From Thalassobius vesicularis (GTDB taxonomy: Bacteria > Pseudomonadota > Alphaproteobacteria > Rhodobacterales > Rhodobacteraceae), in the NCBI RefSeq assembly GCF_004799325.1, contig NZ_SSMD01000001.1:1-64000 (forward strand): DNA of 64,000 nt. Reading direction: 5' to 3'. Shown piece by piece: positions 1-9,284 of the stretch. The notes beneath the pieces were generated by a model. It was not told where the DNA came from, ran no database searches, and saw nothing but the letters and a program-made list of their open reading frames with translations. Within the stretch, counting starts at the first letter, position 1. Each line of letters starts with the position of its first letter. The translations under genes were made by a program, and so were the position numbers.

Positions 1-498
1 CGGCCGAAGCCTAAGGACCCCGATATGCAGTTGTTTGTTCATCGAATGAACCAAACCGCCCACATATCTCTTCAGATATTATCAATGTCAAAGAGCGCGG
101 AGCCTAAGCCCCAGAGACAAAATCAACCGGAAGCGCCAGTTCTTCTTGGCGCAACCTGCGTCAGATGCCTCAGATTTCGTTCCGAACTTCCCACCGAAGC
201 AACCGCCCCGTCGTTCCGTCCGTCCCACCGTCAAGCGCCTCAGCGCCGCCGGTGAAGGGGGTTCTATGGCTTTCACCAAAGACCCGCAAGCGCTTTTTTC
301 GGAAAAAGTGTGAAATCCCGAAATTTTCCGAGACACCCCAACAAAACAACGTAAAATCAATTAGTTAAATCGCCTGCCTTTTGTGCACCGCATCCTCTGA
401 GGCGTAAAATCCACCGACTAGAGGCCGTTTTCGGCTCGAATCTGATTCCAAATCCCGATTCCACGCAGGGAAAAGGCCGCTTTCGCGGCCCTTTCAGC
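1..498. other. Non-coding stretch at window start
   Basis: No convincing gene is visible. Reading from the window edge, a frame ending GCC-GAA-GCC-TAA at 12-14 could be the last codons of a plus-strand gene that lies outside the window; this cannot be tested here. It is followed by two small perfect hairpins, GTTCAT/ATGAAC (37-51) and ATATCT/AGATAT (64-79), and later by CTTTTT/AAAAAG around 293-308. The open frames in 25-368 have atypical composition and no ribosome binding site. The right end holds the terminator of the minus-strand operon. Confidence 0.5.
470..492 (-). terminator. Rho-independent terminator of the caspase/MORN operon
   Basis: On the minus strand GGCCGC-GAAA-GCGGCC is followed directly by TTTTCC. 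The GNRA-type loop, GC stem and short U-tract lie only a few bases past the stop codon of the MORN protein, so this probably ends the three-gene operon. Confidence 0.75.
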
Positions 499-2322
499 TT
501 AGCAGGAGCTTTCGATGTCTTCAGGCAAGGTACAGACCGCCGGAGTCATCCCGCTTTGGAAGTTCGGGATGCGCGTATGCACCATGAACAGCCGTACCGG
601 AGGCGAGCGGCGGATGCTGCCATCGGCGAATGTCGCTTCCATCTGCATCAGGTGCATCGAGGAGCGTTCCGAGTAGAACTTCAGCCCGCTCAGCAGGCTT
701 TGGATATTCGGGTTGCCACGGAACGGGATGTTGATCCGGTAACCTGCGGCGTCATAGGGCAGGTCCACATCCATATATTGCGGGGCCTGGGTTGCGAAGG
801 CACCACCGTCGCCGCATTCCGCCAGCCCGCCGGGAACCTCGATCGTGCCCAGAACGATATTCACCGCGAATACCTGGGTTTCCTGATGGCGCTCCCCCAG
901 CGCGTCGGTCCAGTCATAGGACAGCTCTCCGATCATGTCGGTCGTCAGGCTGCCGCCGCCCTGCTGGGTGCCTGCCAAACGGGACAGCCCCAGATCCTGC
1001 ACCAGCTTTGCCCGGCAGCTGTCCAGCATATCCGCACTGGGGCAGGTCAGGCGTTTGTTTTCCAGCGTTGCAACATCCACGCCGGCATCGATCAGAGCAT
1101 TGCGGATGCTGACATCCACGCCTTCGTCGAAATCGCCGACCGAAACGTCGAACCAAGGCGTATCGGGGGCCTTGGTCGTGCGCTCCTCCCACTCCACCAG
1201 ATCGGGGTTGCGAAAGCCGACGCGGGCCGTGGCGTTCTCGACCTGGCCCCAGCCGTAATTGACGAAGTGGAAATCGGGGCGGAAGCTGACGCAGCCGAAA
1301 TGCTCGACCGTCGACAGAACGGGGCGCAGATGCGGCACGCTGTATTCCACCGCAAGATCCAGCGAGGCCAGCTTTACCCGGCTGCCATCCGTCGTTGCCA
1401 GACGGAACAGCGTGTGGGCGCGGTTCATCAGCCATTCGTTCGGGCCCATCTGGGCGTATTCCCATTGGCTGGCGATCGGGCCGTCGCCATTCCACGCCTG
1501 ACGCCAGCGCGCTTCGGAGGGCAGGATCAGAACCTCGCCGTTCTGGGCGTAGTGGGTATAGGCGACCTCTTGATTAGCCCCAAGGCGCGGATCGACAATC
1601 ACGGTCATGTCCGTCTTGCCAGCCGCCCCGCCATCTTGGGCCTTTTGCAGCCCGCCGATCCGCGAGTCCGCGTAAACAACGGGTCTGGTGCTGGAGACTT
1701 CTTCGCCCGCATCCATCACCACATCATAGGAAAGCCCGCCGGGTTCGGTCACATGGCCATTGCCATCACGCAGGCCATCGCGGAACCCGCCGATATAGAC
1801 CAGACCATCCGCCGACCGGAAAGAGCCCTGCCCCTCGGCCTTGCCATTCACATACGGCCCTTCGTAGCGGTTGCCCCGCGCGTCCAAGTGCTGGCCCTGA
1901 CCATGCAGAACGCCCGCGACCCAGGTGCCGCTGAAATACGAGCCGTCCCGAAAGCTCAGCTTGCCCGGCCCGTCGAACCGACCGTCCTTCATGGTCCCAT
2001 CATAAGAGTGATGCACCGCGCGCGGGTCATAACTGGGCGCGCCCGAGATGCGCCAACTCAGAACCCCGCGGCCTGTGGCCAGACCTTCGGCATTCACACC
2101 CGGCCAGTTGCCAGCGGCAGGTTCCCAGGTGAATTCCAACGCCATGCCGGGGTTGGGGTCATAGATACGCACCATCCGGCGGGTGACCTCGCGGCTGACC
2201 GGGTCATAGATCACCTGCAACCGTTCCCGCAGATCGGTCGCGGCCTCTTCGGCCCAGACCATCCCGGCCAAAGTCAGACCAGCGGCAACACCGAAAACGA
2301 AACCTTTCATCTTGCTGACCAT
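499..2322 (-). CDS. Exported MORN-repeat protein
   Basis: A 607-residue protein with an N-terminal signal peptide (MVSKMKGFVFGVAAG..., cleavage near WAEE at about residue 25). Four MORN-type repeats are visible at about residues 107-191, with the pattern YxGxxxxGxxxGxG (for example YFSGTWVAGVLHGQGQ at 129-144). MORN repeats usually bind proteins or lipids, or act as scaffolds. The roughly 400 residues after them match no family I recognise; they contain several cysteines and beta-rich stretches. I chose the start at 2322 because AAGGAAGGA precedes it and the signal peptide begins there; an upstream ATG at 2586 would add 88 low-complexity residues inside the neighbouring gene. It is the third gene of the operon, 64 bp after the Memo-CapA gene. 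Confidence 0.8.
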   Translation of the reverse strand: MVSKMKGFVFGVAAGLTLAGMVWAEEAATDLRERLQVIYDPVSREVTRRMVRIYDPNPGMALEFTWEPAAGNWPGVNAEGLATGRGVLSWRISGAPSYDPRAVHHSYDGTMKDGRFDGPGKLSFRDGSYFSGTWVAGVLHGQGQHLDARGNRYEGPYVNGKAEGQGSFRSADGLVYIGGFRDGLRDGNGHVTEPGGLSYDVVMDAGEEVSSTRPVVYADSRIGGLQKAQDGGAAGKTDMTVIVDPRLGANQEVAYTHYAQNGEVLILPSEARWRQAWNGDGPIASQWEYAQMGPNEWLMNRAHTLFRLATTDGSRVKLASLDLAVEYSVPHLRPVLSTVEHFGCVSFRPDFHFVNYGWGQVENATARVGFRNPDLVEWEERTTKAPDTPWFDVSVGDFDEGVDVSIRNALIDAGVDVATLENKRLTCPSADMLDSCRAKLVQDLGLSRLAGTQQGGGSLTTDMIGELSYDWTDALGERHQETQVFAVNIVLGTIEVPGGLAECGDGGAFATQAPQYMDVDLPYDAAGYRINIPFRGNPNIQSLLSGLKFYSERSSMHLMQMEATFADGSIRRSPPVRLFMVHTRIPNFQSGMTPAVCTLPEDIESSC

Positions 2323-2386
2323 GGCATCCTTCCTTGGGTTTTGAATAAAGGCTAGCCGCCATGAGCCGAGTCCGACAAGGGATAAG

Positions 2387-4030
2387 TCAGTTTCCCGCCT
2401 GCGTAAGCTCAAACAGATGCGGCAGCGGCAGTTGCCGGACAAAGACCGTGCCTTGCGGGAACACCCGCACCTCGGCCAATGCACCCGAGCTGTGCGGCGG
2501 CAACTGGTCGAACAGGAAATTGCCCAGCGAGTGCAGCACCACCGTGTCCCCGCCCCCCAGCGCCCGCAGGTCCGTGCTGGCGGCATGAGGATGCGCCCCG
2601 ATCACCACCGCCACGCCGCGTTGGCGCAGCCCCTCGGCCAGATCAGTTTCGCGGGCGGCGGGCTGGGTCACAAATTCCCGCCCCCAGTGCAGAAAGGCGA
2701 TGACCGGGCTGGTCGCGTCCGTATGGATCACGCGGTCCAGCAGCTCGGGCGTCAGTCGGTCCACCGGCGGCACAGCCCGGCCTTCCAGATCGGTCAGCCC
2801 CACCAGCGTCGCCCCCATCAGCGGCAACGCCTCTCCCTGCCCGAACGCGGCGATGCCGAACCGGGCCAGCGCGGCGCGTGTCTCGGCCAGACCGGACTCG
2901 CCGATGTCGCGGGCGTGGTTGTTGGCCAGCGAGACCGCCACCACATTCAACAGCCGCGCCCAGTCGCGCAGCAGATCGGCAGGCATTCCCAGCACCATGT
3001 GATCCAGCCCCGCCGGCATCTGCGGCAGCAGAACGCCCTCAAGATTCAGCACCAGCGGCAGGCCATGCGTGGCCGCCAGCGCAGCCTTGGCGACACGATC
3101 CGAGATCAGCTCGTCACTCAGCAACCCCGGCAGCACCCGGCCCAGGAACAGATCGCCCCCGATCATGAACCGCTGCCCGACAAAGGGCGGCACCTCGGCC
3201 CCTTCGGGCGCATAGGCAGCTACGACATAGCTGGTCGTCTCGGCGATGAACGGCTTGTACAGTTCCTGCATGTTGGCATTCGCCACCACGACCGGTCGCG
3301 CACCCCGCGCACCCAGCAATTTCATCGTGATGTACATCGCACCGGTCGAGTCCACGTGATCCGGCTGCACCAGCCCCGCCACGCCGTCCAGATCCATTGC
3401 CGCCAGCAGGTTCAGCACCTGTTGATCCCGCTGCCGCGCCTCGTGCAGCGGCAGGTAATGCGAATAATCCGTCGCTTGCAGCACCACCGTCTCCGGCCCC
3501 AGCAGGGGTGCCAGTCGCTCGGCAAGCGCGTCCCAATGTTCCCGGCGCGAGTTGATCGAGACCGCCACCGGGATCACACTCACCCCCGGCATCAGCCGCG
3601 CCATGAAGGGCAGCACCGCGCGCAGCCCATGCTCCTTGTCGAACAGGCAGCTATCCTGCACCAACGCGCCATCGATCAGCCCCTCCGCCGCCGGATCGGT
3701 CGGCACCGGCCCCAGCACCGTTTCAAACCCGCGCGCCGTGGTGGCAAAGGGGGCGTCCGAGCGAAAGAAGTGGTCGGGAAACAGCACGATCGCGCGTTTG
3801 ACTCCGGGCCGTGCAGTCATGCGGATCGCGGCGCCCAGAAGCTCGGGCATTTCCAGGTGATGCGGCAGGATCGCGCCGCTGATGCCGTCCACCGGCTTTA
3901 CATCGGCGGACCGCGCCAGACCCGCATCGAAATGCTTGGTCTGAGCGTAGAACGGCGGGAAATCCCCCGCCGGACACTCCGCCCGCGCCATGCCGCCGAT
4001 CAGCAAAAGGACCAGCAGCAGCGCTCTCAT
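2387..4030 (-). CDS. Exported Memo-like/CapA metallophosphatase fusion
   Basis: A 547-residue protein with a signal peptide (1-17). Residues about 45-278 resemble AmmeMemoRadiSam protein B (Memo): LPHH at 55-58, FPDH at 84-87, KEHGL at 132-136 and TDYSHY at 187-192. The family cysteine expected before a glycine (ACG) appears as STG at 228-230. Residues about 283-547 are a CapA/PgsA-type (PGA_cap) calcineurin-like metallophosphatase: GGDLFLGR 291-298, NLEG 329-332, NNH 370-372, HWGRE 448-452, GAHPH 478-482 and SLGNFLFDQ 501-509. Its start overlaps the caspase gene stop by 4 bp (ATGA), so the two are translationally coupled. The substrate is unknown. CapA proteins are linked to polyglutamate or surface polymer metabolism, which need not apply here. 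Confidence 0.8.
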   Translation of the reverse strand: MRALLLVLLLIGGMARAECPAGDFPPFYAQTKHFDAGLARSADVKPVDGISGAILPHHLEMPELLGAAIRMTARPGVKRAIVLFPDHFFRSDAPFATTARGFETVLGPVPTDPAAEGLIDGALVQDSCLFDKEHGLRAVLPFMARLMPGVSVIPVAVSINSRREHWDALAERLAPLLGPETVVLQATDYSHYLPLHEARQRDQQVLNLLAAMDLDGVAGLVQPDHVDSTGAMYITMKLLGARGARPVVVANANMQELYKPFIAETTSYVVAAYAPEGAEVPPFVGQRFMIGGDLFLGRVLPGLLSDELISDRVAKAALAATHGLPLVLNLEGVLLPQMPAGLDHMVLGMPADLLRDWARLLNVVAVSLANNHARDIGESGLAETRAALARFGIAAFGQGEALPLMGATLVGLTDLEGRAVPPVDRLTPELLDRVIHTDATSPVIAFLHWGREFVTQPAARETDLAEGLRQRGVAVVIGAHPHAASTDLRALGGGDTVVLHSLGNFLFDQLPPHSSGALAEVRVFPQGTVFVRQLPLPHLFELTQAGN

Positions 4031-6990
4031 TTCGTGCCCTTCGCCAACAGGAAATTCGAGGTCTGCGAGATGTGATAGAACGGCTCTTGCTTGCTTTGGC
4101 TCAGCCGCACGACCTCATGATAGACGTAATCGGCCAGCCCCAGCAGGCGCACGCCCTCGCCCTTGGGATCGGCGGCGCCCTTCAGCCCCTCCAGCATCGC
4201 GTAGGTGAAAATGCCGTGACCCAGATCAGTGCGTTCGCCCGCCGTGTTGTTCGCCGCCGTGGCCGAGAACACGATCACCCGCGCATCTGCTGCTTCCTTT
4301 TCCAGCTTGGCGTTGAAGGCATTGGCCGCGTGGCACGTATCCAGCACCAGAATGCGGCGGCCCTGGGCATAACCGATCTCCTCCTGAATAACGCTCCAAT
4401 CCACCAGCGAGGAGGTCCGCCATTTGTCCCCCCGCATCTGCGCGTCGGTGGGCAGCAGGAAGTACTGTTCCTCCAGATTCATCCCATGCCCCGCCACGAA
4501 AATCACCGTGGTGTCATCCGGCCCGGGTTTGGCCAGGAAATCCACCAGTTCCGAGGACACGGTGCGCGCATCGGGTTCCAAAACATCCAGCGGGTCCATG
4601 AACAGCGACAGCGCGGCCTGACGCGGGGCGTCATCCTCCAGCACCTCGGGGTTGACCATCACCAGTGTTTCCATCCCGGTATACAGCGGGGCTGAGCGGT
4701 CGCGCAGGACGTTCAGAAACTCCAGCGCGTCAGCGACCGGATAAGCCAGATCGCAGGGCTTGCCGGCGCAGCCCTCGGGCAGTTTGGGGTATTTATTCAC
4801 GCCCACGACCGCGACGAATAGCTTGCCCTTCTTCTCTTCGACCGGGCGCTTCTTGGACAGCGCGATGGCAGAGCGTTCGGTGACATAGCCAAACTCATTC
4901 CGCCCGCTGACGGTGATGCGGTTCTCGCCCTCTTCAACCGGGATCTGGTACAGCAACCGCCCGTCCGAGCCGCCAGCCCGCACCGGACGCACGCTGCGAT
5001 CATTCACCAGAACAGCATAGCCCCAGCTTTCGACCTCTTCCAATGCGGCGCCCGTCACCTCGATCATGGCATAGCCGTCAGGTGCGGGCGGGTCATCGAC
5101 CATCCGAATGTCGAACTCCGGCGGGCGGCGGGTCAGCAACTCGTCCAACTCGCTGTCACTCCCGCGTAGCTCTTTCGCCGCTCCGCTGGCCGAGCCGGTC
5201 AGGATCGCCCGCCGCACGATCTCGGGGCTGTGCAGGTGCTGGCGCAACTGCCGCGCGCGGACATAACGGCCTTCGCGGTCCTGCCCCTGATTGATCTGCC
5301 AGCCGACCAGCCGGTCGCCCTCGGGCGAGGAATGGAAATAGCCCTGCGGCGTCCAGATGATCCAGTCGTCACCAGCAAAGAACATGGTCACGATCAGCTC
5401 ATGCGTTTCCAGGTTCCACAGTTTCAGCGTCTGATCCGCGCTGCCCGACAGCACCCGCCCCGCGCGCGGGGCCACCGCCAGCGCCAGAATATCGCCGGTA
5501 TGGCCGGTGAATTCGCCCGCCACTACGCCATCCAACCCGTAATCCAGCAGGATACCGTTGCCACCACCGTCGATCAGCCGCTCTTGCCCCGGCACGAAAC
5601 TGTAGGCAGAGTGGTAATAACCGTCCTGATCTCCCTTCACGATCGGCACCGTGCCCACGACCAGACGAGAGCCCTCGAACCCGCTGCCCGGCTCGCTTTC
5701 CAGGTTGGGCGTCAGATCGGGCAGCGCCGTCACCGCACGACCCAACCGGGCCGTGCCGCGAACCGAGGGTTTGTCGAAACTGCGCTCGCCCGTGGGCAGG
5801 GTCATCTCTTGCGTCAGCTCACCCATAGCGGCGGGACAGATCGCCTGATCCGGACAGGGATCGTCCAGCCCCCAGCCGATCCGGTCCGCTGCCACCGACA
5901 GCCCAACCGAGGCGACCGGCGCCCCGATCCCGCCCATCACCCGCACCGCGCTGCGCGTGTCCGCCCGCCACAGATGCAACGAATTGCGCCGCCCGCCTGC
6001 CGTCAGCACCACCCCGTCGGGCAGCAGGGCCGAGGCATGGACGCCCGTTTCCTGCGCCGTGTATTCGCCCAGCATCTGGCCGGTCGCCACGTCCCAAACC
6101 TCGGTCCCGTGCGCGCCCGCGCAGCGATAGCCGCAGGACAAGGTCAGCACGTCGCCCGCCAGTGTCATCGCATCCACCCGGAACGGGCGTGGCGGCAGAT
6201 CGGCCAGAACCGTCCCCGTCGCCGCATCGCGCAGGGTCACGCGCCCCTGATCGTCGGCCAGCGCGAACCGCGCGCCATCAGGGCTGACCGCCAAAGCAAT
6301 CAGCGGGAAATCCCACAGCGCCTCGGCATCCGGGGGCGTGATTGCCTCGCCGGTTCCAGTGTCCCAAATCCGCAGCCCGTAATCATATGTCGCCGCGATC
6401 AGCCGCGTCCCGGCATAGCCCAGCTCCGAGACCCGCAGCGCCTCGGTGTCCAGCGTCGCTAACGCCTCGGGCGTATCGGAGAACGGCGCGCGCCAGCGCA
6501 GCACCTGACCGCCCTGCCCGCTGACCGACAGCTCGTCGCGCACCGGATCATAGGCCAGCGCCTCGGCCACGTATTGGTGGCCCTTCAGCACGTTCACCAC
6601 GGCCCCGCTGCGCAGATCGAAGATGCGCACATCCCCGAATGCCTGGTCCGAGGCCAGGTTCGCCCCGAAATACCCCGCCACCGCCACATGCGTCCCGTCC
6701 ACCGACAGCGCCACCGCGTTGACCAGCCCTTCGCTGCCCGGCCCGATCTGGCCACGCAGCACCGCCGTGCTGATCCCCGCCTGCCAATCCCAGACCCGCA
6801 CCGTCTTGTCGTCCGAGGCGCTGACGATCACCGCCCCATCCGCGCTGACATCCACGTCGCGGATCACAGCCCGGTGGCCGCCCGTATCCAGATCCAGATA
6901 GTAGTTTTGCCCGTCAGCCTGACCGGCACTTGGAAAGACGGCCCAAACAACGCTGGCCAACAAGAAAGCAGAGGATCGAAGCGACTGCAT
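4027..6990 (-). CDS. Exported WD40-repeat caspase-like (orthocaspase) protein
   Basis: A 987-residue protein: signal peptide (about 1-26, ending AGQA-DG), a WD40-like beta-propeller region about 35-540 with clear repeats (GHRAVIRDVDVSADG at 38-52, GHTGDILALAVAP at 496-508), a linker, an Ig-like segment about 625-712, then a peptidase C14-type domain about 722-985. The catalytic dyad is visible as His835 in VAGHGMN and Cys886 in LDTCHAANAF, 51 residues apart as in caspases and metacaspases. Prokaryotic caspase homologues cleave proteins and have been tied to regulated proteolysis and cell death; here the signal peptide points to the periplasm. I chose the ATG at 6990 over the GTG at 6996 because GGAAGG is 5 bases upstream. 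First gene of the operon. Confidence 0.88.
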   Translation of the reverse strand: MQSLRSSAFLLASVVWAVFPSAGQADGQNYYLDLDTGGHRAVIRDVDVSADGAVIVSASDDKTVRVWDWQAGISTAVLRGQIGPGSEGLVNAVALSVDGTHVAVAGYFGANLASDQAFGDVRIFDLRSGAVVNVLKGHQYVAEALAYDPVRDELSVSGQGGQVLRWRAPFSDTPEALATLDTEALRVSELGYAGTRLIAATYDYGLRIWDTGTGEAITPPDAEALWDFPLIALAVSPDGARFALADDQGRVTLRDAATGTVLADLPPRPFRVDAMTLAGDVLTLSCGYRCAGAHGTEVWDVATGQMLGEYTAQETGVHASALLPDGVVLTAGGRRNSLHLWRADTRSAVRVMGGIGAPVASVGLSVAADRIGWGLDDPCPDQAICPAAMGELTQEMTLPTGERSFDKPSVRGTARLGRAVTALPDLTPNLESEPGSGFEGSRLVVGTVPIVKGDQDGYYHSAYSFVPGQERLIDGGGNGILLDYGLDGVVAGEFTGHTGDILALAVAPRAGRVLSGSADQTLKLWNLETHELIVTMFFAGDDWIIWTPQGYFHSSPEGDRLVGWQINQGQDREGRYVRARQLRQHLHSPEIVRRAILTGSASGAAKELRGSDSELDELLTRRPPEFDIRMVDDPPAPDGYAMIEVTGAALEEVESWGYAVLVNDRSVRPVRAGGSDGRLLYQIPVEEGENRITVSGRNEFGYVTERSAIALSKKRPVEEKKGKLFVAVVGVNKYPKLPEGCAGKPCDLAYPVADALEFLNVLRDRSAPLYTGMETLVMVNPEVLEDDAPRQAALSLFMDPLDVLEPDARTVSSELVDFLAKPGPDDTTVIFVAGHGMNLEEQYFLLPTDAQMRGDKWRTSSLVDWSVIQEEIGYAQGRRILVLDTCHAANAFNAKLEKEAADARVIVFSATAANNTAGERTDLGHGIFTYAMLEGLKGAADPKGEGVRLLGLADYVYHEVVRLSQSKQEPFYHISQTSNFLLAKGTK

Positions 6991-7793: not shown

Positions 7794-8705
7794 TTACGTA
7801 CAGTCGCGGATGCTCTCGGCCAGGTCGCGCAGCATCTGCGCGTACAGCGGCCAGCCCGGCGCCTGATTGGCGCCCAGCGGGTCCAGCGTGGCGACATTTA
7901 CGCCTGCCTCGGTGACCGTGTTGATCAGGCCGGGGTTAAACTGAGGCTCGGTGAAAACGCAGGTGACATTCATCTGCGTCACCGTCTGGCGGATTTCGGC
8001 GATCCGCTTGGCGCTGGGGTCCGAGGCATCCGACAACGAGATCGCGCCCGCAGCCGACAGGCCAAAACGGTTCTCGAAATAGTGAAAGGCATCGTGGAAC
8101 ACGATGAACTTCAACCCCGCCGCATCAGCCAGAGTTGCGGTCAATTCAGCAGTCAAAGCGTCCAGCTCCGCCCGCCCCTCGGCGGCATTGGCGGCGTAGC
8201 GCGTGGCGTTTTCCGGGTCGATCTGGCCCAGCGTATCCGCAATCGCGCCCAGCCAGACCCAGGCGTTCATCGGGTCCAGCCACGCATGGGGATCACCCTC
8301 GTCATGGCCGTGCTCATCCGCATGCGCCCCCCCCTCGGCCTCATGCTCATGCGCCTCGAACGTCGCGCCCTCGCGGAACTCCAGCACGGTCGTGCCCGGC
8401 ACCTGCAGCAATTCGACGACCGTCGCCTTATCGCCCAGCGTTTCCAGCGGCCCTTCCAGCCAAGGCTCCAGCCCCTCGCCCATCCAGAACACCGCCTGCG
8501 CCCTGTCCAGCGCCGCCGCCCGCGACGGCCGCAGCGCGTATCCATGCGGCGAGGCGCCCGGCTCCACCAGCAGCGCCGGTTCCCCGACGCCCTGCATCAC
8601 CCGCGCCACCAGCGCATGTATCGGAGCAATATCCGCCACCACCTGAGGCACCTCGGCCTGCGCCGCACCCGCCAACAGAAACGCCCCTGCAAAGGCCAGC
8701 CGCAT
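7794..8705 (-). CDS. znuA: Zinc ABC transporter substrate-binding protein ZnuA
   Basis: A 303-residue periplasmic zinc-binding protein that delivers zinc to ZnuBC. Signal peptide about 1-17 (LLAGAAQAEV). Likely zinc ligands of the cluster A-I family are His54 (SPHGYAL), His140 (DPHAWLD) and His204 (VFHDAF). Between them, at about 119-134, lies the acidic His-rich loop typical of ZnuA proteins (HEHEAEGGAHADEHGHDEG). It is transcribed away from zur-znuC-znuB across a shared control region, the usual arrangement. The start at 8705 begins a clean signal peptide; open frame continues upstream but runs into the control region and zur. Confidence 0.95.
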   Translation of the reverse strand: MRLAFAGAFLLAGAAQAEVPQVVADIAPIHALVARVMQGVGEPALLVEPGASPHGYALRPSRAAALDRAQAVFWMGEGLEPWLEGPLETLGDKATVVELLQVPGTTVLEFREGATFEAHEHEAEGGAHADEHGHDEGDPHAWLDPMNAWVWLGAIADTLGQIDPENATRYAANAAEGRAELDALTAELTATLADAAGLKFIVFHDAFHYFENRFGLSAAGAISLSDASDPSAKRIAEIRQTVTQMNVTCVFTEPQFNPGLINTVTEAGVNVATLDPLGANQAPGWPLYAQMLRDLAESIRDCT

Positions 8706-8723
8706 TGTCTCGCTCCATGTGAT

Positions 8724-8763
8724 TGTATAACGTAACACCGCTTGATATATGTTACAGTATATC
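8724..8763. promoter_or_regulatory. Putative paired Zur boxes between znuA and zur
   Basis: Two related AT-rich near-palindromes lie between the divergent starts. TGTATAACGTAACA at 8724-8737 reads TGTTACGTTATACA on the other strand, close to the core of GATATATGTTACAGTATATC at 8744-8763, which itself has perfect 6-bp arms (GATATA/TATATC). Zur operators in this class are AT-rich palindromes with GTTAY cores, so repression of both znuA and zur-znuCB under zinc sufficiency is likely. The exact Zur consensus for this organism is not known to me. Confidence 0.55.
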
Positions 8764-8804
8764 ACATCAAGACCCAATCTCGGCACCGCAGCGAAAGGCC
8801 ACCC

Positions 8805-9284
8805 ATGGACCCCGTCGGTTTCACCCAGCATGATCACCACAGCTGCATCGCGCAGAACCTCTCGGCCGTCGAACAGATGTGCGCAGATCAAGGCCTGCAA
8901 TTCACCCCGGTGCGCCGCCGCGTGCTGGAGATTCTGCTGCACGAACACCGCGCGCTTGGGGCGTATGAAATCCTCGACCGGCTGCGCGACGAGGGGCTTG
9001 GCTCGCAACCGCCCGTCGCATATCGCGCGCTCGACTTCCTCGTCTCGAACGGTTTCGCCCACAAGATCGAGCACCTGAACGCCTTTGCCGCCTGCGCGCA
9101 TCCGGGGCAGGATCACACGCCGATGTTCCTGATCTGCCGCGCCTGCCAATCCGTGGCCGAGGCCGTGGCCCATCTGCCCTCGGACACGCTGGGCCGCACC
9201 GCCCGCGCCGAAGGGTTCCGCATCGAAAAGGCCGTGATCGAGGCCGAGGGCCTGTGCCCCCATTGCCAGGACGCCACCGCATGA
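8805..9284 (+). CDS. zur: Zinc uptake regulator Zur (Fur family)
   Basis: A 159-residue Fur-family repressor. N-terminal winged helix (TPVRRRVLEILLHEHRALGAYEILDRL, with VAYRALDFLVSNG as the recognition region) and a C-terminal metal-binding part with CRAC and CPHC pairs for the structural zinc, plus HPGQDH. It is placed as Zur rather than Fur because it starts the znuCB operon and faces znuA. I chose the ATG at 8805, six bases after GAAAGG; an in-frame ATG at 8742 lies inside the putative operator. It overlaps znuC by 4 bp. Confidence 0.93.
   Translation: MDPVGFTQHDHHSCIAQNLSAVEQMCADQGLQFTPVRRRVLEILLHEHRALGAYEILDRLRDEGLGSQPPVAYRALDFLVSNGFAHKIEHLNAFAACAHPGQDHTPMFLICRACQSVAEAVAHLPSDTLGRTARAEGFRIEKAVIEAEGLCPHCQDATA

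Follow-up and report, generated by a model that had tools for sequence, protein, structure and literature searches.

A stretch of 64,000 nucleotides from Thalassobius vesicularis (contig NZ_SSMD01000001.1, positions 1 to 64,000; hereafter the window) carries on its minus strand three consecutive genes for proteins that are predicted to be exported: a WD40-caspase (gene 1, 4027..6990), a Memo-CapA fusion protein (gene 2, 2387..4030) and a MORN-repeat protein (gene 3, 499..2322). The three genes form a conserved gene neighbourhood and very probably act as one module. In Alphaproteobacteria the constant core of this neighbourhood is composed of Memo-CapA and the MORN protein, and its variable part is a WD40 propeller joined to an effector. 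Gene 1 encodes 987 amino acids from the ATG at 6990 (two codons before it there is a GTG), gene 2 encodes 547 and gene 3 encodes 607. The stop of gene 1 and the start of gene 2 overlap by 4 base pairs (bp; ATGA, 4027..4030), gene 3 starts 64 nt past the gene 2 stop, and a terminator-like hairpin with an 11-bp stem lies 3' of gene 3 on the same strand (470..495). This layout of three minus-strand genes, the first two overlapping by 4 bp and the third followed by a terminator, had been described in a first-pass annotation of the window, and all of its elements are present in the sequence.

The evidence for a conserved neighbourhood comes from 76 Memo-CapA loci, recovered from the 80 best of 232 matching stretches in a species collection. 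Record titles, together with the tree described below, assign 61 of them to Alphaproteobacteria; the title of one of them, L046, carries no taxon and the locus groups with Mesorhizobium in the tree. The coordinates of the three genes in these relatives were obtained with tblastn (L096 gave no gene 2 match at 1e-20) and their open reading frames with a gene caller based on GC content at third codon positions, which still yields one family, f14, that is antisense to gene 2. The WD40-caspase is found in 50 of the 61 alphaproteobacterial loci and, in 48 of these, lies directly upstream of Memo-CapA on the same strand (including L063, which is cut by a contig end); the remaining two are L059, where only the end of the caspase is present at a contig edge, and L083, where the caspase lies on the other side. 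Eleven alphaproteobacterial loci are without the WD40-caspase: five have a TIR-STAND protein, four are cut upstream and two (L052 and L091) have neither. A MORN homologue is present in 56 of the 61 loci, which is also the number among all 76. It is encoded on the same strand in nine (eight Rhodobacterales loci and L083, with the order MORN-MORN-Memo/CapA-caspase) and on the opposite, convergent strand in the other 47, and the spacing between the caspase and Memo-CapA genes in 48 relative pairs ranges from a 4-bp overlap (15/48) up to 260 bp when the start codons are picked by a script. Gene order has been rearranged between lineages while the neighbourhood was retained. The first-pass annotation had named scattered, independent genes in relatives as the observation that would speak against it, and in the relatives examined co-occurrence was found instead; of the same-order co-occurrence that it proposed as a check, the linkage of the trio across relatives held and the common order did not.

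Closer to the window, full-length orthologues of each of the three genes occur in the same two of 198 genomes of the family, the window's own (G000) and G184, in which the trio is contiguous. Matches of any kind are more widespread (gene 2 in 18, gene 1 in 66 and gene 3 in 194 of the family genomes), and the next-best E-values past the two orthologues, 2.6e-11 for gene 2, 7e-28 for gene 1 and 4e-18 for gene 3, belong to matches with parts of the proteins only. Among 337 genomes of the class, searched at strict thresholds (1e-40 for gene 1, which by design misses TIR-type partners), each gene matched its own genome only. The C-terminal part of gene 3 matched three of 283 genomes of the order, namely the window's own, G184 and G739; the latter belongs to the same genus, also has the caspase and carries all three genes in order and in the same setting. 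Four other sampled members of the genus are without genes 1 and 3 (gene 2 was sought only in G076, where none was found), so that the trio is present in two of six sampled members. Gene 1 gave no plasmid match at 1e-60, gene 2 gave one at 1e-30, which is of the TIR type, and gene 3, the only one of the three tried there, gave no match in 50,697 phage records.

In five of the 61 alphaproteobacterial loci a TIR-nSTAND1 protein replaces the WD40-caspase according to tblastn (Bauldia L067 and L086, Devosia L076 and L079, and Rhizobium L081), and on a Rhizobium leguminosarum plasmid (L136) Memo-CapA and a MORN-family protein lie beside another TIR-nSTAND1 protein. The TIR-type partners were scanned with Pfam in L067, L081 and L136 (PF13676, PF20703), and in these three the WD40 repeats follow one hydrophobic segment, an arrangement that would place the propeller outside and the TIR domain inside; L086 is cut by a contig end before the WD40 part. 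The plasmid MORN-family protein matches only the later part of gene 3 (residues 188-586) and has no Pfam match. In a tree of the 76 Memo-CapA proteins, which leaves out L087 and L092 (both short) and L096, the TIR label falls into two separate groups with at least three changes on well-supported branches, and the caspase-bearing L083 is sister to one of the TIR groups; the three changes may reflect one gain and two losses. L071 and L072 are labelled 'none' in this tree although tblastn finds DUF3160 there. A protein annotated with a CHAT domain is encoded close to the TIR-nSTAND1-WD40 gene on the plasmid (L136, 16951-19584). DUF3160 proteins are encoded near Memo-CapA in L070, L071, L072, L073, L075, L080, L089 and L095 (two of them Pfam-scanned), which come from Deltaproteobacteria, Riflebacteria and Peregrinibacteria. 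In the candidate-phylum loci L088, L090, L092, L093 and L094 an unnamed family is found beside Memo-CapA or one gene away from it, two scanned members of which had no Pfam match.

The N-termini of all three window proteins read as signal peptides under our own hydrophobicity rule, which was used in place of SignalP. The predicted signal peptide of gene 1 is about 25 residues long (6916..6990, minus strand) and ends in GQA, with the cleavage site placed by eye. With the window proteins counted in and the start codons of relatives chosen by script, the rule holds for 48 of 49 caspases, 68 of 76 Memo-CapA proteins and 53 of 57 MORN proteins, and the claim that all three proteins carry N-terminal signal peptides therefore extends from the window to most relatives. 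Independent support for export is provided by closely spaced cysteines: the pairs C286/C290 and C379/C385 of gene 1 are conserved in 48/49 orthologues and C741/C746 in 49/49, and C427 and C436 of gene 3 are conserved in 56/57 and 57/57, which suggests disulfides and hence an oxidising compartment.

The WD40-caspase combines a WD40 beta-propeller region (about residues 34-540, 5371..6891, minus strand; Pfam PF00400, 6e-23, over cut-off) with a C-terminal caspase (Peptidase_C14) domain (4051..4809, minus strand), for which the isolated C-terminal segment scores 42.1 bits against PF00656 with a cut-off of 21.4. Judged by its sequence, this caspase domain is divergent. With the whole gene 1 protein the caspase family is absent among the 25 of 31 matching Pfam families listed and the NCBIfam caspase match falls below cut-off, a PF00656 search of the own genome did not pick up gene 1, and a sequence search of the PDB with the caspase segment gave no match. 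The catalytic dyad (His835, codon at 4486-4488, and Cys886, codon at 4333-4335, both on the minus strand), described as intact in the first-pass annotation, is invariant in 49 of 49 aligned orthologues, a count that leaves out L083 and L059. Asp884, two residues before the catalytic cysteine, is likewise invariant, which we take to be a feature of the S1 pockets of Arg/Lys-specific metacaspases.

Gene 2 matches Pfam PGA_cap (2e-24) and Memo (1.3e-10) over their cut-offs as well as NCBIfam AmmeMemoSam_B (TIGR04336, protein B; 66.5 bits, cut-off 26), and its AlphaFold2 model has a mean predicted local distance difference test score (pLDDT) of 94.8 and a predicted template modelling score (pTM) of 0.93. 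The protein is modelled as a MEMO1-like half joined to an MslH/YmdB-like half. The Memo domain (residues 21-276, 3203..3970, minus strand) aligns with MEMO1 3bcz over 253 residues (VIA Z 27.4, root-mean-square deviation (rmsd) 2.8 A) and has, by structure comparison, the extradiol-dioxygenase fold. The CapA/PGA_cap domain (residues 283-545, 2396..3184, minus strand) is defined by Pfam and by structure: MslH, a lasso-peptide epimerase, aligns with residues 283-547 over 246 residues (VIA Z 20.3, rmsd 3.5), and YmdB follows with VIA Z 15.0. A PDB sequence search with gene 2 alone gave no match; its profile did match. AMMECR1 (protein A) is absent from the matches of genes 2 and 3 and from the listed families of gene 1 (25 of 31).

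The two halves differ in how their metal sites compare with those of their relatives. The iron ligands of MEMO1 are H49, H81 and C244, and in dioxygenases Glu replaces the Cys (PMC11081632). His57 and His87 of Memo-CapA align with His49 and His81 and have conservation values of 0.97 and 0.99 (n=76). None of 16 aligned Memo-CapA sequences has a Cys in the column of the Cys244 ligand (in L095, a distant one, Cys stands in the adjoining columns), five ordinary Memo proteins of relatives retain the ligand Cys, and Asp227, two residues from the lost Cys column, is kept in 16/16 Memo-CapA rows. We hypothesise from this alignment that Asp227 might restore a two-His-one-carboxylate metal site. In the CapA half, a set of Asp, Glu, Asn and His residues (D293, E331, N371, H372, D375, H448, H480 and H482; conservation 0.97-1.00, n=76) corresponds by alignment and our own residue matching to the metal-site residues of MslH and YmdB, which are described, with a single metal bound by MslH, in PMC10406935. 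On our own reading of these residues, Memo-CapA would have the fuller, YmdB-like His-x-His set and so resemble a phosphoesterase more.

The third protein contains MORN repeats (about residues 107-207, 1702..2004, minus strand; Pfam MORN 1.9e-14, over cut-off; Foldseek E 4e-11 to MORN1 structures) and a beta-rich C-terminal domain (about residues 230-600, 523..1635, minus strand) that includes Cys427 and Cys436 and has no confident fold match; its model has a pLDDT of 83.6 and a pTM of 0.59. PDIP38, RbmA and alpha-2-macroglobulin were considered as the fold of this domain and none is claimed, their Z of about 7 being within the stated noise.

The trio belongs to a larger system. In most rhizobial loci its flanks encode another exported caspase (f3, a representative of which matches PF00656) and two exported trypsin-like proteases (f5 and f4, Pfam on representatives), and within the fetched flanks of the 50 caspase loci tblastn finds f3 in 43, f5 in 40 and f4 in 38 (clustering gives slightly different counts of 41, 37 and 38). 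In the 11 other alphaproteobacterial loci, four of which are cut upstream, f3 is found in none, f5 in two (L034 and L052) and f4 in L052. In the Rhodobacterales loci L023 and L027, f3 and f5 occur at other positions and a DUF900-type alpha/beta hydrolase (Pfam on L023) lies between the trio and the caspase. In G184 the trio is directly adjoined by relatives (41-65% identity) of a trypsin-PDZ protease, a response regulator, a histidine kinase, a patatin and an f3-type caspase. The window's own genome holds a set of an exported trypsin-PDZ protease, a response regulator, a histidine kinase, a patatin, a caspase and a trypsin elsewhere (C6:84501-104400, L140), with a second caspase lying divergent to the set; these C6 caspases were rejected as a missing part of the module as they are unlinked to the trio in this genome, though relatives of the set adjoin it in G184. 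None of the 76 loci matched the patatin, kinase or regulator of this type of set at 1e-10. In 27 of 61 alphaproteobacterial loci (e.g. L041, 4864-5241) a gene located between those of the second caspase and the WD40-caspase encodes a small protein, f11, that contains Cys, begins with a signal-like N-terminus, matches no Pfam family and is possibly a substrate or an inhibitor.

We tentatively favour, at somewhat less than even confidence, a reading in which the trio is an extracytoplasmic module that couples a sensor to a protease or other effector. In the proposed model, whose steps past gene content, fold and residues are inferred, the WD40 propeller, periplasmic in both partner types, would read an envelope signal that is presented by, or checked via, the MORN protein as scaffold, and Memo-CapA would set the threshold by making or editing a small molecule or peptide. 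Binding of the signal would then release the effector, either the caspase outside or the TIR domain inside. The caspase would be of the Arg/Lys type and active in the periplasm, and in rhizobia the trypsin-like zymogens and the second caspase would probably be activated or joined by it. The TIR variant would instead use a TIR domain that consumes NAD in the cytoplasm. The likely outcome would be controlled damage to the envelope or the cell upon injury or invasion. The first-pass annotation had proposed a periplasmic proteolytic module: the three genes do behave as one exported module, and the description is incomplete in that relatives add further proteases and exchange the caspase for a TIR protein.

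An immune or cell-death purpose of the trio is suggested by the TIR-STAND proteins, the caspase-trypsin sets and the nearby patatin, some of which have PADLOC matches (caspase models at 51 and 82 bits, a TIR model and a phospholipase effector model at 28 bits match neighbour-type proteins of relatives), and we regard it as possible while leaning clearly against it. More speculative still, and in our judgement unlikely, is that the trio constitutes the equivalent, outside the cytoplasm, of a bacterial pathway for immunity or cell death, with periplasmic propellers, a fixed core of MORN and Memo-CapA proteins, and interchangeable effectors. That these effectors would be a secreted caspase (with a cascade of trypsins and a second caspase in rhizobia) or a transmembrane TIR-STAND protein carrying a periplasmic signal inward is held with the same low confidence.

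Several observations weigh against the reading of the trio as a sensor-effector module and against its immune extension. PADLOC finds nothing for genes 2 and 3, and for gene 1 it reports a partial 26-bit match to HEAT-ARM and not to a caspase model. The association with the second caspase is confounded with rhizobial ancestry, and four of the 11 loci used for comparison are truncated on their upstream side. L052 and L091 have full flanks and neither WD40 partner, and in five loci (L026, L050, L051, L065 and L078), two of which are cut upstream, no MORN gene is seen across some 9 kb of downstream sequence. The tree rows L081, L083 and L136, which bear on the exchange of partners, are long branches. 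The Mesorhizobium loci have common flanking genes, unlike a roaming defence island, and gene 3 has no phage match, with no systematic search made for genes of phages or mobile elements around the trio. In the 15 loci outside Alphaproteobacteria, Memo-CapA is found with different partners (DUF3160 in 8/15 and the unnamed family in 5/15) and is thus not tied to proteases.

The alternative that survives best, although we consider it improbable, is maturation of a surface peptide or protein, in which Memo-CapA modifies a product, the caspase and trypsins process it and the MORN protein anchors it, with no killing or immunity involved. It would account for the match of the CapA half to an epimerase of lasso peptides (Z about 20, 246 residues aligned), for the dioxygenase fold of the Memo half, for the small exported Cys-containing protein in 27/61 alphaproteobacterial loci and for the pairing of Memo-CapA with other proteins outside Alphaproteobacteria. 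MslH, however, binds one metal, whereas the His-x-His set of Memo-CapA is YmdB-like and, on our reading, more phosphoesterase-like; no dedicated substrate gene common to the Rhodobacterales loci was seen, and it leaves unexplained why a TIR-STAND protein can take the caspase's place. Less probable again is a role in envelope proteostasis, with stress-controlled periplasmic proteases for quality control, the WD40 and MORN proteins as substrate adaptors and no part in cell death. The HtrA-like trypsin-PDZ protease and two-component system beside the trio in G184 and the trypsin-like proteases f5 and f4 in the flanks of 40/50 and 38/50 caspase loci are consistent with such a role, but the patchy presence of the trio (2/198 family genomes and 2/6 genus members) is unusual for housekeeping, and the patatin and the TIR-STAND variant fit poorly. 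Chance adjacency of three unrelated exported genes is strongly disfavoured and very improbable, for while the domain families are individually common (MORN matches in 194/198 and caspase or WD40 matches in 66/198 family genomes), the other family genomes among the rows listed give partial-domain matches, the full-length orthologues occur only together, and the linkage spans two orders despite rearranged gene order.

The bacterial caspases investigated as enzymes of immunity or death are, to our knowledge, mainly cytoplasmic. If the sensor-effector reading is true, a conserved exported caspase module whose fixed partner has two metal domains, and in which TIR-STAND is the alternative to the caspase, would place sensing at the envelope, and the question of what secreted bacterial caspases are for would become testable in ordinary rhizobia. 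A carboxylate that perhaps replaces the Memo Cys ligand in Memo-CapA bears in turn on whether Memo proteins are dioxygenases. The TIR-nSTAND1-WD40 proteins, which in some relatives stand beside Memo-CapA and the MORN protein in the caspase's place, differ in that they are predicted to span the membrane with the effector inside, and they are not among the trio genes of the window.

The trio had been called a system not known to be described, and no paper on it was found among the literature matches listed, a search with subscription papers and preprints outside its scope. Prokaryotic WD40 metacaspases or orthocaspases (PMC3501461) share with gene 1 the combination of Peptidase_C14 and WD40 repeats; WD40 is the most numerous accompanying domain among bacterial metacaspases (73 sequences, 10.9%), and the same paper mentions a caspase operon that is conserved across four Rhizobium strains, as well as N-terminal helices that are possibly signal peptides. 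In contrast to these metacaspases, gene 1 belongs to a conserved module whose other members are Memo-CapA and the MORN protein, and neither Memo nor MORN appears as a word in the text of that paper. Nucleoside triphosphate (NTP)-dependent conflict systems with caspases or trypsins (PMC7159879) likewise place caspases by alpha/beta hydrolase, trypsin-like peptidases, TIR and STAND. The window trio, however, is predicted to be exported and is without an NTPase domain: none of the families listed for the three genes is an NTPase family, and nSTAND1 is found only in the TIR variants. The text on these systems contains neither 'MORN' nor 'signal peptide', and that of PMC8195603, which treats related domains, has neither MORN nor Memo. 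With AmmeMemoRadiSam protein B and human MEMO1 (PMC11081632), Memo-CapA has the fold, two His ligands and a nearby His/Asp in common; unlike MEMO1 it is without the Cys244 ligand, has a near-invariant Asp two residues off, is predicted to be exported and is fused to CapA. With MslH and the CapA family (PMC10406935) it shares the calcineurin-like fold and metal-site residues, and it is distinguished from MslH, with its rearranged one-metal site, by the Memo fusion, the export signal and, on our own reading, the YmdB-like His-x-His.

Genes that we named by eye as znuA-like and Zur-like lie near the trio (7794-9284 of the window). The trio stands beside such znu/zur-type genes, again by eye, in the window, G739 and L021, and a Fur/Zur-like family occurs in 29/61 alphaproteobacterial Memo-CapA loci. 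A zinc link was rejected, and the setting treated as location only, because it is missing from the gene calls made for L022, L023 and G184 and no repressor-like palindrome was seen by eye upstream of gene 1. No promoter is claimed, since the sole minus-strand promoter-like site of a consensus scan falls within gene 3. In the same scan terminator-like sites were no commoner than in shuffles, and the hairpin 3' of gene 3 is not in its output, its tail having four T where the scan requires five. This hairpin folds with -21.9 kcal/mol over a 42-nt stretch (z -3.7).

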